Source of the DNA: a virus | Reading direction: 5' to 3' (one strand) | IMG/VR virus record: IMGVR_UViG_3300033153_002115 | Span: 1-64,000 of that record | Length of the DNA stretch: 64,000 bases | Shown here: positions 7,725 through 16,448 of the stretch, in pieces | Numbering within the stretch: position 1 is the stretch's first letter | Layout of the letters: every line of letters begins with the position of its first letter | The notes under the pieces: model-generated | The model's input: the letters and a program-made list of their open reading frames with translations, nothing else | Databases searched by the model: none | Told to the model about the DNA's origin: nothing | Position numbers and translations under genes: made by a program

Positions 7725-8102
7725 ATGGAGTTAAATTTAAAAGCAGGCGATATCAGGAAAGCTATTGCTATGTATCTTGGTATACTGTACAAGTTCCATA
7801 AACTTACAGATAAAGAGATAGAGGTATTGACAGAAATCATCTATACTTATAAACAACTTAAAGATAAGTACGATTCCGCTGTAGCGGAGAAACTGTACCT
7901 GGATAAAAGTGCGCGTAAAGACATTACTGATAAATTTAAGATGAGTCGTCAGGTATTTAGGAACTACTTAGTTACTTTTAGAAAGAAAGGTATTATCTCT
8001 GGTGATACTTTAAAAGCAGCTTTTATTCCTGATTTCGGTAATATAAACCTTACGTTTAATATAAGATATGAAGGACAAGATACTCGAGAAGATAATAAAT
8101 GA
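7725..8102 (+). CDS. Helix-turn-helix protein
   Basis: The 125-residue product is helical and contains a probable HTH at residues about 60-95 (DITDKFKMSRQVFRNYLVTFRKKGIIS). It sits directly upstream of an IHF-like gene and the packaging genes, so it may be a regulator or a DNA-organising factor. It is the last gene in the window that ends in TGA. Confidence 0.6.
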   Translation: MELNLKAGDIRKAIAMYLGILYKFHKLTDKEIEVLTEIIYTYKQLKDKYDSAVAEKLYLDKSARKDITDKFKMSRQVFRNYLVTFRKKGIISGDTLKAAFIPDFGNINLTFNIRYEGQDTREDNK

Positions 8103-8319
8103 AGTAGCGAAAGAGATGGGTATAAGACCTAAAATTGTCTTTGCAGTGTATAGACACTTTCTTAATTATATCTACAAGATGATGACGAAAGTAAAGTTAA
8201 AGCATATGTCTAAAGAATACATAAGGAAACATGCAGTAAATATTAACATTCCCGGATTCGGGAGAATACTAAATAAATATGGCAAAACTATTAAAAGCAG
8301 AAAAGACAAAAGCAACTAA
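8068..8319 (+). CDS. IHF/HU-like DNA-binding protein
   Basis: The 83-residue product follows the HU/IHF-like pattern of crAss-like phages: N-terminal helices, a middle helix (FAVYRHFLNYIYKMM) and a beta-turn segment NINIPGFGRIL, followed by a basic tail. These proteins bend DNA and some are virion components of crAss-like phages. It overlaps the HTH gene by 35 nt and the co-chaperonin by 41 nt, so the block is tightly coupled. Confidence 0.65.
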   Translation: MKDKILEKIINEVAKEMGIRPKIVFAVYRHFLNYIYKMMTKVKLKHMSKEYIRKHAVNINIPGFGRILNKYGKTIKSRKDKSN

Positions 8320-8671
8320 AGAAAATCCACTTAAGTTGAGGTTATTCTATGATCACATTATAACTACTTGCAGGACTAAAGATGTAAGTCCTAGTGGTAT
8401 CATTCTTAATGCAGGTAAGGGTGAAGTATTAAATCGACAGAAAGTTCTGGCTTGTGGTCCTGGTTCTGGAGTTGAGGTAGGAGAAGAAGTAGAACTTAAT
8501 CCGGATACTTTTCCTAAGATAAAGGTGACACCTAAGACACACGGTGGTTACGAACATGGAATCGGACCGGACGGTACAGTAACAGTACCACCTGTTGAGT
8601 ACATCGACGACATACCTTATCTACGGGTAAATACACATAAATTAAAATGGGTATATGAGAAATCTGTTTAG
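8279..8671 (+). CDS. GroES-like co-chaperonin (Cpn10 fold)
   Basis: The 130-residue product matches the GroES pattern: LKLRLFYDHIITT at residues 19-31, then SGIIL near 41, a GKGEV turn, VLACGPGSGVEVGEEVEL near residues 57-74, and a closing strand KLKWVYEKS. A longer insertion (residues about 85-115) replaces the usual C-terminal part. Phage co-chaperonins such as T4 gp31 replace host GroES to fold the major capsid protein. Its position just before the packaging and capsid genes supports that role. Confidence 0.7.
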   Translation: MAKLLKAEKTKATKENPLKLRLFYDHIITTCRTKDVSPSGIILNAGKGEVLNRQKVLACGPGSGVEVGEEVELNPDTFPKIKVTPKTHGGYEHGIGPDGTVTVPPVEYIDDIPYLRVNTHKLKWVYEKSV

Positions 8672-9179
8672 TTTAAATTCGGACGGTCTTGTTGTCATAG
8701 AACCACAAGCCTGGTTAATAGATGCCTTTAAAGCTATTCGGGATAAGTATAAGGATCCCGGGATAGCTACTGTAGAGATGGGACTGATATGGTTTGCTGC
8801 AGATTATCGTTCTGACTTCAATACTATTTTAGAAGTAGAAGCTCGTGTAGCTAAGATTAGAAATGTAATTTACACTAATCGTAATCTACAGATAGATGAG
8901 AAGACGTATAAGGCTATCGAGTTTTATAAAGAAGAACAGGATACTACAAAGATTTTATTGATACGAGCTGTTAATAGTGGTTTATTACGTGCGATTGCTA
9001 CTATTGATAAAACAAATATGGATGATCTTGACGAAATAAAAGTCTTTTCAGATATCGTTACTAAACTACCAAATATGGTGGATAATATTGATAAACTAGA
9101 GGCTTTTGTTAAGAAAGAACAGCAACTAGATGATGGTGTTGTAGGTGCCGGTCAAAAAAGTATTTATGAAGATGGCTAA
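8655..9179 (+). CDS. Candidate terminase small subunit / conserved pre-TerL protein
   Basis: The 174-residue product has a mostly helical central region and an acidic C-terminus. No HTH is certain. It lies directly upstream of TerL, the usual place of a small terminase subunit, and overlaps the co-chaperonin gene by 17 nt. The call rests on position and size; it could instead be another crAss-like conserved head protein. Confidence 0.4.
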   Translation: MRNLFSLNSDGLVVIEPQAWLIDAFKAIRDKYKDPGIATVEMGLIWFAADYRSDFNTILEVEARVAKIRNVIYTNRNLQIDEKTYKAIEFYKEEQDTTKILLIRAVNSGLLRAIATIDKTNMDDLDEIKVFSDIVTKLPNMVDNIDKLEAFVKKEQQLDDGVVGAGQKSIYEDG

Positions 9180-9213: not shown

Positions 9214-11388
9214 ATGGTAACTAGATTTAAAGAATCTACTGAGGAATATAGGGAATTAGTGAAAACTATAGATAGTATTACATTAGTACAACGTATGCTT
9301 GATCCTAATAGGAAAAAAGCTTCAGATTTACCTAGAGATAAATATGATAAGATTAAAATAAATGTAGCTGATCCGCATATATTAGAAAATACAAATTACT
9401 TTAGAAAGTCAGCTATAACTTTTGAGAAGTACGGACATTATACAGAAGCTTATCCATCAAAGGATCCCAATAGCCCTTATAGGAAGTTCTGGGATGAAGA
9501 GAAAAGAAGATGTATTGAAGGCTATATAAGAAAATTAGACGGCGAGTGGGTCACTGGCTACTACTACTTCTATCTGAACTATTGTCCTATAATGAAAGCA
9601 GAAATTATAGGGGAAGAACGTGCAGAGGATGGTAGTATTAAGTCAGAGAGAATAGAGGGATTTCCGGACTTTTGGGACGGGGATTACCTCTTTTTTCATT
9701 ATATAGATCAAGGAGATCTTAAAGGTAAACATGGTTCTGTGTTAAAGACCAGGGGTCGTGGTTATTCTTATAAAGCTGCTGCAATGTCTGCTAGAAATTA
9801 CGAGTTATTCGAGGCTAGTGCTTCTTATGCTTTTGCTAGTGATACTGAATATCTGGATACGGACGGGATACTAAATAAGACTTGGGATTTTTTAAACTTC
9901 GGTAATAAGTACATAGGGTTTGCTAAGAAGTTAAGACTTAAGGATACTATGATGGAGAAGAAAGCTGGTTATAAAAAACCAGGGGATCCAAGTGAGTTTG
10001 GGTTTATGTCTAGCATTACTGGCGTAACGATGAAGAATAATCCAGGTAAAGCAAGGGGAAAGAGAGGTAAACTTATACTCTGGGAAGAAGCCGGTATATT
10101 CCCTAACATTCTTAAGTCATGGCGTATTGCACAGAAGTCAATGGAACAAGGTCATCGTATATTCGGTTATATGGTAGCGTTCGGGACCGGAGGTGAAAAA
10201 GGGGCCAACTTTGAAGGACTTGAAGCTTTGTTCTATAAACCTAAAGCTTACAGAGTACACTTCGTAGAAAATGTATATGATGAGAATATTAAAGGACAGA
10301 CATGTGGATTCTTTCATCCGGAGTACTTGAATCGTTCGGATTGCTATGATAAAGAAGGTAACTCGGATGTAATAAAAGCTATGGAAGAAGTAATTAAGGT
10401 GCGCTTGGATATAAAGTATAGTGCAACTAATGCAGAAGATATAGCTCAGGCCAAAGCAGAAGAACCGTTTACACCGCAGGAAGCTATCATGCGTATAGAA
10501 GGAACCGTTTTTCCTGTAGATGAATTGAAAGAAAGGTTAGCTGAAATAGGGCCAAAAATTCCATCTTTCACAGCACCTCACTACATAGGGGATTTGGTTT
10601 GGGCTGGATCTGACAGTGTAACCTTTAAACCTAACTTTAATAAAACACCTATACGAGAGTGGCCAATCAAACGTGCCGACACTGAAGGAGCTGTAGAGAT
10701 ATTTGAGATGCCTAAGAGAGTAGATGGTGCTGTATCTAACATGCGATATATAGGAGGAGCAGATACTGTAGATGATGAATACGGTACTTCCTTGTTTTCT
10801 ATTTTTATAATGGATACCTTTACAGATAATATTGTAGCAGAGTGGACTGGTCGTTTTAGAAGAGCCTCTGATAATTTTGATCTGGCACTTAAACTTGCTA
10901 TTTACTATAACGCTATTATAAATTACGAGAACAAGCTGAAAGGTATGTTCGGGTATTTTGATAACAAGAATAAATTACACTACCTGGCAGATACACCAAG
11001 TGTACTAAAGGATATGGATTATGTAGCTAAGAGAGAAAGTTACGGTAATAAAGCTAAGGGCACTCCGCCTACAATGCAGATAAACGGGTATGGACGAAGA
11101 CTTCAGGCTGACTGGATGATAACCCATAACCTTTTCTATAAAGACTTGGCGTACAAACACATAAGAAGTATAGGGTATATAAGAGAAGCAATTAGTTGGA
11201 ATATTAATGGAAACTTTGATAGGATATCGGCAGGTATTATGTTATTTATATTAAGAGAAGACAGACTTAAAGGGTTACGTTCACAAAAAGAAGAAGACAG
11301 ACAAGAGGACTATGATAATGATCCATTCTTTAATGGAGACAAAGAGTTTACAGAACTACATTCAGAATTTGCAGATATAACATTATAA
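9214..11388 (+). CDS. terL: Terminase large subunit
   Basis: The 724-residue product is the DNA-packaging motor ATPase/nuclease. A deviant Walker A, TRGRGYSYK, is at residues 179-187 and a Walker B, LILWEEAG, at 287-294 with catalytic Glu after the aspartate-equivalent position. The C-terminal half carries the RNase H-like nuclease pattern with acidic residues in GGADTVDDEYG and later ENKLKGMF. Length and motif form match crAss-like terminases. It begins after its own promoter and is followed 9 nt later by the portal gene. Confidence 0.93.
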   Translation: MVTRFKESTEEYRELVKTIDSITLVQRMLDPNRKKASDLPRDKYDKIKINVADPHILENTNYFRKSAITFEKYGHYTEAYPSKDPNSPYRKFWDEEKRRCIEGYIRKLDGEWVTGYYYFYLNYCPIMKAEIIGEERAEDGSIKSERIEGFPDFWDGDYLFFHYIDQGDLKGKHGSVLKTRGRGYSYKAAAMSARNYELFEASASYAFASDTEYLDTDGILNKTWDFLNFGNKYIGFAKKLRLKDTMMEKKAGYKKPGDPSEFGFMSSITGVTMKNNPGKARGKRGKLILWEEAGIFPNILKSWRIAQKSMEQGHRIFGYMVAFGTGGEKGANFEGLEALFYKPKAYRVHFVENVYDENIKGQTCGFFHPEYLNRSDCYDKEGNSDVIKAMEEVIKVRLDIKYSATNAEDIAQAKAEEPFTPQEAIMRIEGTVFPVDELKERLAEIGPKIPSFTAPHYIGDLVWAGSDSVTFKPNFNKTPIREWPIKRADTEGAVEIFEMPKRVDGAVSNMRYIGGADTVDDEYGTSLFSIFIMDTFTDNIVAEWTGRFRRASDNFDLALKLAIYYNAIINYENKLKGMFGYFDNKNKLHYLADTPSVLKDMDYVAKRESYGNKAKGTPPTMQINGYGRRLQADWMITHNLFYKDLAYKHIRSIGYIREAISWNINGNFDRISAGIMLFILREDRLKGLRSQKEEDRQEDYDNDPFFNGDKEFTELHSEFADITL

Positions 11389-11397
11389 ATAAATATT

Positions 11398-13695
11398 ATG
11401 GCCAATATAATCAGATTACCTCAACAAAAGAAATCTTTCAGAACTAAGACTAAAGTTTGGAAAGAAGAAACTATTAACGCAATAGATAGTGGTATATCTT
11501 ATTTAAGTAACCAAGAAGTAAGGCGTTCAGTAATAGAAAAGACTATTAATGCAGAACTATTTGATGGTAAGCTTAATATGCAAGATGTACTGATGGTTGT
11601 AGATACTTCAAGTACTCTAAATGCCTATGTACCAAAGAAGATACAACATAGACCTATTTTACGTCCCAAGATAGAATTATTAGTGGGGGAAGCTACAAAA
11701 GAACCTTTCGACTGGGCTGTTATGGTTACGGATCCTAATAGTATCGCTAATAAAGAAGAGAACAAGAAAGCGGCTATTGACGAAAAGATTACTATGCTTC
11801 TTGAATCTGAGTATTCTGAAGAAGAACTACAAGTAAAGATGAAAGAATTGGACTTATACTTTAAGTATACCTGGAAAGACTTGAAAGAAGTACGTGCCAC
11901 TAAAATCCTAAAGCACTACTATAAAGCTTTAAAGATAGAAGAGAAGTTTAATGAGTGTATGATGGACAGGTTAGTCTACGGAGAAGAGTTACTGATGTTT
12001 GACATTATAGCCGGTGTTCCGGAAGCTATTAAACTGGATCCTAAAAAAGTACATACCTTATACTCTAGTCACTCTAATCGTATATCGGATTCGGACATTA
12101 TTGTTATAGAGGATTACTTCTCACCTGGGAAGTTAATTGATATGTACTATGATGAGTTAAAACCAGATGAAGTTGAGATGATCAATAAAGGTCTTGTATA
12201 TGACGATAATGGAGATGTACATAAACAAAACATGGTTAGTTCAGAAGGTATCATTATAGATGGTATGGTACAGGCCGCCTCTTTTGATCGTCCTTACTCT
12301 ATCAATGGTTCTACAGTAGATGGTAACGGTAATATTCGGCATTTAAAAGTTTTATGGCGTTCACTTAAACAGGTATATATTGTAAAAGGTATAGATCCGG
12401 AATCAGGAGAAAGATACGAAAAGGTAATGTCTGAAGAATACATACCTAATCAAGAATTAGGGGAAGAGGTAGATAAAGTATGGATAGAGGAGTGGTGGCA
12501 AGGTTCTAAGATAGGTAATAAGTTATATAAAAAAGTAGGGCCTCGTCCTGTGCAATTTAACTCTGAAGGTAATATATCTAAAGGTCATCCAGGTATAGTG
12601 GGCTATTTTAATTCTACATCTGGAGGAAAAGTTGTTTCTTTCCTATCAAAAATGAAACCTTATCAATACCTATATGATATCGTATGGGATAGGGTAATGG
12701 ATGCCTTGAAAAAGAACATGGGTAAAATAATGGAAGTTGATCTAGCTAAGATACCACGAGGGTGGACAGTAGAGAAATGGATGCATTATGCTTATAAAGG
12801 TGGTATAGCTTTTATTGATAGTTTTAAAGAAGTAACCAAAGGAGTAGCCACAGGTAAACTGGCAGGTACTTTTAATACATCCGGGAAAGTTCTGGATATG
12901 GAAACTGGTAATTACATACAACAACATATTAATTTACTACAGTTTATAAAAGCAGAGATGTCAGAGATTGTAGGTATTACGCCGCAAAGAGAAGGAGCTG
13001 TACAAGCTTCAGCTACTGTAGGAAGTACAGAAAGATCTGTAATGCAAAGTAACAATAATACAGCCTATGAGTTTTATCAACATCAACAATTTAAACTTGA
13101 GTCATTACAGATATTACTTGAAACAGCTAAAGTAGCTTTACGTGGTAATAAAAAGATGGCACAGAATATATTGGATGACTTCTCTCTCGAAGTATTTAGT
13201 ATTGATGGTGATGAATTCGTAGACAGTGACTACTCTATATTCATAACTGTATCTAAGAAATCTGCTGAAATGAAACAGAGTTTAGAGATGTATTCACAAG
13301 CATTTATGCAGAATGGAGGTAATTACGGTGTAGTATTAGATATCTTGTTCTCGGATAGTCTTGCAGAGAAGAGACGTAAAATAGAGTTGGCTGAGTTTGA
13401 TATGAAACAAGAGGCTAGAGCTCAACAAGAACAAGGAGCTAAAATGCAACAAGAACAACTTGCAGCTCAACAAGCAGAAAAAGAACAAGAACGTCAAACA
13501 AAGTTATACGAGGTGGATTCGAATAACGCCACTAAGATTATACTTAAAGAGATGGAACAGGAAGGAGTTGATAAGCAGATCAACCAGGATGCTACAGAAA
13601 ACAAAGAAGATATATTAATGCGTATTAAGGAGTTAGCAGGTAAAATGACTATTGAACGTGAAAAGATACAAAAACAGAAGACAACAGCAGCGTAA
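11398..13695 (+). CDS. Portal protein
   Basis: The 765-residue product is the dodecameric head vertex through which DNA passes. It follows TerL directly and has portal-like composition: an alpha/beta stem region with aromatic strands, a clip/crown segment with VGITPQREGAVQASATVG, and a long Gln/Glu-rich C-terminal coiled coil (residues about 660-765) typical of crAss-like portals. About 100 nt without a gene follow. Confidence 0.85.
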   Translation: MANIIRLPQQKKSFRTKTKVWKEETINAIDSGISYLSNQEVRRSVIEKTINAELFDGKLNMQDVLMVVDTSSTLNAYVPKKIQHRPILRPKIELLVGEATKEPFDWAVMVTDPNSIANKEENKKAAIDEKITMLLESEYSEEELQVKMKELDLYFKYTWKDLKEVRATKILKHYYKALKIEEKFNECMMDRLVYGEELLMFDIIAGVPEAIKLDPKKVHTLYSSHSNRISDSDIIVIEDYFSPGKLIDMYYDELKPDEVEMINKGLVYDDNGDVHKQNMVSSEGIIIDGMVQAASFDRPYSINGSTVDGNGNIRHLKVLWRSLKQVYIVKGIDPESGERYEKVMSEEYIPNQELGEEVDKVWIEEWWQGSKIGNKLYKKVGPRPVQFNSEGNISKGHPGIVGYFNSTSGGKVVSFLSKMKPYQYLYDIVWDRVMDALKKNMGKIMEVDLAKIPRGWTVEKWMHYAYKGGIAFIDSFKEVTKGVATGKLAGTFNTSGKVLDMETGNYIQQHINLLQFIKAEMSEIVGITPQREGAVQASATVGSTERSVMQSNNNTAYEFYQHQQFKLESLQILLETAKVALRGNKKMAQNILDDFSLEVFSIDGDEFVDSDYSIFITVSKKSAEMKQSLEMYSQAFMQNGGNYGVVLDILFSDSLAEKRRKIELAEFDMKQEARAQQEQGAKMQQEQLAAQQAEKEQERQTKLYEVDSNNATKIILKEMEQEGVDKQINQDATENKEDILMRIKELAGKMTIEREKIQKQKTTAA

Positions 13696-14957: not shown

Positions 14958-16448
14958 ATGAGTTTAAATTTAGGTAAATTTCAGATGACTGAAGTAAAAG
15001 ACTTTGCTGGTTTGGTTACAGCAAATCAATTAGGTCTGTTATTTCAAAATAAGCCTCAAGTACTTCAAAGTTCTATTGTAAGGTTTTTAGCTGGATCAGG
15101 AGTTCGCACCATTTCTGGGGAACTTGAAAAGATTCCGAAAGAAACCTTAGATGTAGAAGAAGATTTTACTTGGAGACTTACAGGACATGATGAGAAAAAC
15201 GTTCCATTACTTTATGCTACTGTTGCAGGTACTATTGTTGCTGCCCAAACGGAAAATGGTAAAGATGGTGAAGAGATTGTATTAGTGTTCCCGGAAAAAT
15301 ACTTCTCTGACGTTAATGTACTTGTTGGTGAAAAGAATGAAATCTATCAATTCCGTGTAGTAGCCCCTGCAGTATCTGTAGAAGATGGCTGGGCTTATAC
15401 TACTAAGTTGATGGGTGCCGCTGCTAAGACTGGTGTTCCACCAGCAGAAATTATTGGAGGAAAAAGATTCTCTAAAGACTTCTCACCTGTGGAAGATACT
15501 ATGTCTATCAAAGGTGGTGATATCACTTTCACTTCTCCTATCGATATGAGAAATGGCTTTACTACTTTACGTATGGAACATAAGGTTCCTGGTAATATGA
15601 TGGACAGAAAGGTTGCTGGTACATTCGTAGGTCATACTCAAGAAGGAGACGTTAAAGAATTCACTGTTTGGATGCTTTACGCAGAATGGGAATTTGAAAA
15701 GCAATGGGAACGTGAAAAAGCTCGTGCTTATATGTTTGCTCGCTCTAACAGAAATGAAGACGGATCTTACACTGATTTAGGAGCCTCTGGTTTCTATATT
15801 AAGCAAGGTGCTGGATTACGTGAGCAAATGGAAGTATCTAATGTAACTTTTACTGATGATATTACTATCGAACTACTTGAAAGTATTCTTACTGATATGG
15901 TAGAAGGTAGAGAAGATGTGGAAAATGTTGCTGAATTTGTAATACGTACAGGACGAAGAGGTGCTTCTCAAATCTCGAAAGCGGCTGCTACAGAAGCTTC
16001 AGGTTGGAATAACCTTACTACTTATAATCCTGAGTTGATTCAAACAACTTCTTCTAACTTACACTCACGTTCACTTAAAGGTGGATTCCAATTTACCGAG
16101 TGGTTACTTCCTAATAACATTGTACTTAAAGTTGAAGTTGATAACAGCTATGATAGTAAAGTTCGTAACAAGATTAATCACCCTAGTGGTGGTGTAGCTG
16201 AAAGTTACAGAATGGACATTATCTTTATGGGATCGATGGACACTAATAACATTGTAAGATTAGGAACTAAAGCCGGTGATATGAGAGGTTATTTAGCTGG
16301 TTTCCGTAATCCTTGGACTGGTGAACTTAATAACATGCATATGGGAACACAGGAGGATAGCGCTACTTATACTCGTTACGGGTCACTAGGGGCTGCAATT
16401 AAAGATCCTTCTAGGACTGCGGTTATACTTCCAACTTTACTCGAATAA
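14958..16448 (+). CDS. Major capsid protein (crAss-like)
   Basis: The 496-residue product is the main head protein. Order after portal and scaffold, length near 490 residues, and regions such as GAGLREQMEVSNVTF and RGYLAGFRNPWTG agree with crAss-like HK97-fold capsid proteins. Its DNA favours GGT, CGT and ACT codons more than neighbouring genes, as expected for a highly expressed gene. A stable hairpin follows 10 nt after its stop. Confidence 0.88.
   Translation: MSLNLGKFQMTEVKDFAGLVTANQLGLLFQNKPQVLQSSIVRFLAGSGVRTISGELEKIPKETLDVEEDFTWRLTGHDEKNVPLLYATVAGTIVAAQTENGKDGEEIVLVFPEKYFSDVNVLVGEKNEIYQFRVVAPAVSVEDGWAYTTKLMGAAAKTGVPPAEIIGGKRFSKDFSPVEDTMSIKGGDITFTSPIDMRNGFTTLRMEHKVPGNMMDRKVAGTFVGHTQEGDVKEFTVWMLYAEWEFEKQWEREKARAYMFARSNRNEDGSYTDLGASGFYIKQGAGLREQMEVSNVTFTDDITIELLESILTDMVEGREDVENVAEFVIRTGRRGASQISKAAATEASGWNNLTTYNPELIQTTSSNLHSRSLKGGFQFTEWLLPNNIVLKVEVDNSYDSKVRNKINHPSGGVAESYRMDIIFMGSMDTNNIVRLGTKAGDMRGYLAGFRNPWTGELNNMHMGTQEDSATYTRYGSLGAAIKDPSRTAVILPTLLE

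Follow-up and report, generated by a model that had tools for sequence, protein, structure and literature searches.

Among the lids that phages encode for GroEL, gp31 of bacteriophage T4 is, by general knowledge and in the two accounts cited here, the best studied (PMC6318259, PMC3012670). T4 gp23, a protein of about 56 kDa, depends on gp31 (PMC6318259, PMC3012670), and gp31 is described as having no roof loops, mobile loops of 22 rather than 16 residues, and a cage about 8% larger (PMC6318259). In the crAss-like phages, gp15 of crAss001 (H3300_gp094, YP_009910755.1) is annotated as a 'putative 10kDa chaperonin', and it falls into one HMM family with the protein analyzed here; the late virion-assembly proteins of crAss001 are reported to include a 'chaperone' (PMC8375218). 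The gene described below therefore belongs to a family that databases already annotate and to which one publication refers as an assembly chaperone. A search of the open-licence literature on crAss-like phage chaperonins, phage co-chaperonins and the Cellulophaga phage GroEL gave no title or abstract on this protein, the words 'chaperon', 'gp15' and 'GroES' do not occur in the main text of PMC6235969, and neither 'chaperon' nor 'GroE' was found in the review PMC10136315. What is new here is modest, namely a census of the loops of this family and the recognition of lineages that bear both a lid and a GroEL of their own.

The window, that is, the whole stretch of 64,000 nucleotides that was analyzed, comes from an IMG/VR virus record of 98,468 bases, which is classed as being without end repeats and may for that reason be incomplete. 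Because its capsid protein matches PF23898 (Crass_capsid) and its terminase large subunit (TerL) resembles those of the crAss001-type Steigviridae, with about 39% identity, the source is on sequence grounds assigned to the crAss-like phages. All the genes considered here lie on the + strand. The GroES-like (Cpn10-fold) co-chaperonin gene (8279..8671; ATG start, 130 codons, 130 aa) is preceded by an HU-like gene (8068..8319), with which it shares 41 bases. The latter is named from gene order, crAss001 having its 'protein HU' at the corresponding site, and its Pfam matches (HU model, E = 0.076; Bac_DnaA_C, E = 0.024) are both under the cut-off. The gene at 7725..8102, with no family match over the cut-off, may by its position correspond to the 'VpsT-like transcriptional regulator' of crAss001. 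On the other side, the GroES-like gene overlaps by 17 bases with a gene for a 174-aa protein (8655..9179), after which come TerL (9214..11388; PHROG 6681, E = 5.1e-99), the portal protein (11398..13695; PHROG 6547, E = 2.3e-105), one more ORF, and the major capsid protein (14958..16448; PF23898, E = 2.7e-131). The preliminary description of this DNA had placed the GroES-like gene next to TerL and upstream of the capsid gene; the second statement is borne out by the Crass_capsid match, and the first holds as to nearness but not as to direct adjacency, since the 174-aa ORF intervenes.

The position of that intervening gene suggests a small terminase. Its protein has relatives in 60 of 67 TerL loci and is thus far commoner than the GroES-like gene; the predicted model is helical (pLDDT 84.0), and a PDB fold search with it gave nothing at E ≤ 0.001. 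As to TerL itself, in two loci (L039:5941-9219 and, in DAC15, L070:5917-9249) its gene is a single open frame with about 1 kb of additional length, pointing to an insertion in frame, for instance of an intein; the long gene of DAC15 is annotated 'DarB-like antirestriction'.

Taken alone, the window protein is only faintly recognizable. It matches Pfam Cpn10 with E = 0.033 and 14.6 bits, the cut-off of 21.1 not being reached, the PHROG co-chaperonin GroES family with E = 0.0051, and NCBIfam GroES with E = 0.036, far under the cut-off; PHROG 931, to which T4 gp31 belongs (E = 3.7e-50), is not matched at E ≤ 1. No GroES was returned by a PDB search with the single sequence and no relative by tblastn in the phage collection, while an IMG/VR search with the lone protein yielded 13 pattern stretches, none of them a confirmed relative. 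The protein's own genome gave no Cpn10 match at E ≤ 0.001. Because the lone protein stays under the Pfam cut-off, we name it a divergent Cpn10-fold protein and not an ordinary GroES.

After these lone-protein searches had failed, the family was traced via gene order around TerL. A TerL scan of IMG/VR provided 67 loci, and when their ORFs, together with those of three named phages and of the window, were searched with an iterated HMM, 24 proteins emerged as one family, with members in 20 of the 67 loci, in each of the named phages and in the window. Where at least 1 kb of sequence precedes the TerL-adjacent gene (48 loci), the lid gene was present in 18 and not detected in 30, absence here meaning failure of detection and not proof. 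Weak candidates were recognized in three loci (L009, E = 0.004; L029, E = 0.02; L024, E = 0.07), and in one further genome (G009) Cpn10 is matched above the cut-off, at a site away from this locus. The window protein matches the family HMM of the last round with E = 7.7e-38, a value that is not independent, as the protein is in both the model and the seed; an independent sign of membership is its identity of 37-49% to the members in seven loci (L001-L007), with which it shares its gene order. Between two of these (L001 and L002, over 143 codons), dN was 0.119 and dS 1.388, and the gene family is therefore a real coding sequence under purifying selection.

The alignment of the family has 23 rows (L045, which is like L028, was omitted, and L026/L027, L017/L018 and L037/L068 are near-identical pairs). 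Cpn10 was matched at E ≤ 0.1 by 16 of these members, with a best E-value of 1.6e-6, the PHROG GroES family by 19, and PHROG 931 at E ≤ 0.1 by 14. In the PDB, the family profile found 15 distinct Cpn20/Hsp10/GroES sequences (E = 4.4e-8 to 2.6e-4) and gp31 at E = 0.057. Profile-to-profile comparison by hhalign with 11 Bacteroidota GroES, picked for spread from 80 fetched loci, gave a probability of 96.9 and E = 1.6e-10; two of these host proteins (L109 and L184) probably have N-termini that are too long, from an upstream ATG, with their loops unaffected. The Cpn10 pattern noted in the preliminary description is thus weak in the lone protein and firm at the family level, and the window protein is a divergent GroES (Cpn10)-fold member of the Steigviridae 'putative 10kDa chaperonin' family.

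The fold prediction points in the same direction. An AlphaFold2 model built with 20 aligned rows had a mean pLDDT of 75.3 and a pTM of 0.63; by blocks, the pLDDT is about 90 in the core strands, below 50 in residues 1-15, 70 and 64 in the mobile-loop blocks, and about 62-64 in residues 81-100 of the expanded stretch described below. When the model was compared with the PDB by Foldseek, the best 32 matches were GroES/Cpn10 or gp31, followed by oxidoreductases, the best E-value being 3.8e-5 and the TM-score by query a middling 0.36-0.52 among these 32. VIA-align, which was limited to Foldseek's own list, so that families outside that list may also fit, ranked human Hsp10 from the football complex highest (Z = 9.7, 87 residues at rmsd 3.0); the GroES chains reached Z = 7.8-9.7 (E. 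coli GroES, 9.2) and the oxidoreductases at most 5.6. The closest structures are those of GroES from GroEL-GroES complexes. Against the viral models of BFVD, a viral co-chaperonin came first, and the homologues from phi14:2 and cr108_1 rank second and fourth. A fold other than GroES, the outcome that the preliminary description had named as speaking against it, did not emerge from these comparisons, and the predicted model upholds a GroES beta-barrel for the window protein.

These comparisons also bear on whether the protein could be a small beta-barrel component of the head or tail, for instance a stopper, whose likeness to GroES is accidental and which plays no part as a chaperonin. The stopper protein 10lj (gp12) does match the family profile, with E = 0.0025 over 27 positions, as do dehydrogenase domains over short stretches. 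However, that profile is matched far better by GroES and Hsp10 than by the stopper protein, the fold ranking and the Z-scores given above separate GroES from the oxidoreductases, and the crAss001 virion paper, whose main text mentions neither 'gp15' nor 'chaperon', lends no support to a part in the virion. We regard such a structural role as very improbable.

The hydrophobic residues of the mobile loop are those by which a GroES-type lid binds GroEL. For the loop census, 27 family members, the 11 Bacteroidota GroES and T4 gp31 were placed in one alignment, from which we set the limits of the mobile-loop region of the window protein at residues 31-50 (8369..8428). The residues that the preliminary description had proposed to look for are present, as S-G-I-I-L at residues 39-43, compared with S-G-I-I-I in the hosts and S-G-L-I-I in gp31, and at least two of the three hydrophobic residues are kept in 26 of the 27 family members. 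The loop itself is not lengthened in the window, the mobile-loop-and-strand stretch being 30 residues long there, 31 in the hosts and 35 in gp31. Two other parts differ from the hosts. The roof, counted from A-V-G to V-G-D, has 6 residues in the window (residues 61-66; 8459..8476), 6-12 in the family (median 7) and 9 in gp31, whereas it has 11 in all 11 hosts. The stretch from V-G-E to the last strands (residues 70-113; 8486..8617), counted from V-G-D to the Y-L strand, is expanded to 44 residues, with 36-46 in the family and 30 in gp31, against 18 in all 11 hosts. The changed C-terminal part that had been remarked on at the outset can thus be specified as about 26 extra residues relative to Bacteroidota GroES, and it is common to the family.

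A GroEL search of the whole 98,468-base record gave no match, and because of this the likely partner of the window lid is the GroEL of the host. Eleven further whole records with a member of the lid family likewise had no GroEL match (four IMG/VR records, crAss001, cr85_1, DAC15, cr116_1, cr126_1, cr128_1 and Kolpuevirus 'frurule'), for 12 in all with the window's record. In four phages whose whole records were searched, namely cr108_1, cr111_1, Dulem virus 41 and phi14:2, the lid occurs together with a GroEL of the phage's own, a situation in keeping with the family acting as chaperonins. The phage GroEL sites are L077:129-1661 (cr111_1), L079 (cr108_1), L089:3976-5448 (phi14:2) and L081-L082 (Dulem virus 41). 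Four further IMG/VR crAss-like records (loci L083, L084, L085 and L086 of G006, G008, G010 and G011) have groES and groEL of the ordinary kind, near each other and away from TerL, and two of the four are near-identical there. We also considered whether phages with their own GroEL have lost the host-type glycine of the mobile loop. It is present in 10 of the 12 without a GroEL match and in one of the four with one, but a hand-computed one-sided hypergeometric probability of about 0.06, in which kinship is ignored, led us to make no such claim.

The coexistence of lid and GroEL is relevant to a further possibility, that the protein binds GroEL through its GroES fold without promoting folding, and so blocks or diverts the host chaperonin. 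The divergent sequence and the expanded stretch would suit such a blocker. On the other hand, pure inhibition is unlikely for a family in which the lid is retained by phages that encode a GroEL themselves, and the gene stands among the late virion genes and not among early takeover genes; this alternative seems to us improbable.

As to what a co-chaperonin would serve, the capsid protein is a plausible candidate and, by analogy, the likeliest client. Its mass of 55.1 kDa (portal, 87.5; TerL, 83.7) is close to that of T4 gp23, a 'chaperone' is among the late proteins of crAss001, and the crAss001 capsid protein is reported to carry an E-loop insertion at a site similar to that of T4, the insertion being of another fold (PMC10172136). 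Our overall explanation, to which we give a probability of roughly 0.65, is that the window encodes a phage Cpn10-fold co-chaperonin that docks on host GroEL and helps late proteins, most likely the capsid protein among them. Copies of the lid would assemble into a ring-shaped dome, for which we infer a heptamer from the fold; the dome would dock on host GroEL through the S-G-I-I-L mobile loop and close the folding chamber. The short roof and the 44-residue stretch would then alter the top and the inner wall of the dome, and late proteins of the phage would fold better there than with the GroES of the host, with the 55-kDa capsid protein as the likeliest client on the model of T4 gp31.

The distribution of the lid counts in part against the capsid protein as client. 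At E ≤ 1, the family profile matched none of the 12 Suoliviridae and none of the four Intestiviridae records sampled, nor Flavobacterium phage Fpv1, although the capsid proteins of Suoliviridae and Fpv1 are related to that of the window (among 60 of the 117 records listed). That the size of the capsid protein by itself forces a phage to have a lid was rejected as a sufficient explanation, as the capsid genes of three Suoliviridae records with no family match (cr52_1, cr55_1 and cr10_1) have 1434-1485 bases against 1491 in the window. CrAss-like phages can thus either manage without a lid or have one that has diverged beyond recognition. In two of the 12 Suoliviridae, the Buhlduvirus records cr273_1 and cr272_1, a 137-aa ORF (L191:276-689 and L192:158-571, respectively) lies beside a 72-aa HU-like ORF, and its C-terminal half matches Cpn10 under the cut-off; this ORF may be related to the lid at a very great distance, and a hidden, more divergent lid may accordingly exist in this group.

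The same distribution speaks for a general-purpose co-chaperonin, which would supplement or replace host GroES for many phage proteins during infection and for which the capsid protein would be nothing special: phages with related capsid proteins and capsid genes of similar length have no clear member of the lid family. Gp31 is itself reported to be able to replace GroES for host proteins (PMC6318259, PMC3012670), and the GroEL genes of the four lid-bearing relatives suit this reading as well. Nevertheless, the place of the gene in the late block before TerL and the alteration of both the roof and the inner stretch suggest specialization. We consider a general-purpose role unlikely, though less so than either the structural or the inhibitory one.

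If a co-chaperonin specialized for late proteins is what these phages have, the crAss-like phages, some of which, such as crAss001, can be grown, would provide a second lineage of phage lids, and a distant one. This would permit a test of short roofs and altered cages as a general answer to the folding of capsid proteins of about 55 kDa, and a natural test of partner switching would lie in comparing relatives that do and do not encode a GroEL. A wider proposal, which we hold tentatively and at somewhat less than even odds, is that the Steigviridae-type lid evolved separately from that of T4 toward a gp31-like form, with a short roof and a long inner stretch, beside the packaging genes, and that its partner switches, being host GroEL in most of these phages including that of the window and phage GroEL in cr108_1, cr111_1, phi14:2 and Dulem virus 41.

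The closest known systems include the crAss001-type phages. In crAss001, cr85_1 and cr111_1, the gp15 homologues, annotated 'putative 10kDa chaperonin', stand directly after the HU gene as in the window, whereas in cr126_1 one gene separates the two; 41 of 50 phage records matched by the cr85_1 protein bear this label, many of them being duplicates or near-identical isolates. The short roof and the long inner stretch are common to the window and these relatives. However, the window protein is only about 25% identical to crAss001 gp15, the mobile loop reads S-G-I-I-L in the former and G-G-I-I-D in the latter, and three genes lie between lid and TerL in crAss001 against one in the window. In the Cellulophaga phage phi14:2, gp107 is annotated 'hypothetical protein' but matches the family profile with E = 1.1e-7 and sits before the TerL-adjacent gene, as in the window; unlike the window's record, phi14:2 has its own GroEL (gp117), and the loop of gp107 is without the glycine. 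With Bacteroidota GroES, the window protein shares the predicted fold, the loop motif and the last strands, and differs in the roof (6 against 11 residues) and the inner stretch (44 against 18). T4 gp31 has the same GroES-type fold, to which the window model aligns with Z = 7.0 and 6.6, and in both roof and inner stretch it deviates from host GroES the same way as the window protein. The inner stretch of gp31 is, however, shorter (30 against 44 residues), and its mobile loop is lengthened whereas that of the window is not. Dependence of the capsid on the lid is established for gp31 in the T4 accounts (PMC6318259, PMC3012670), and for the window lid it is proposed by analogy with that system.
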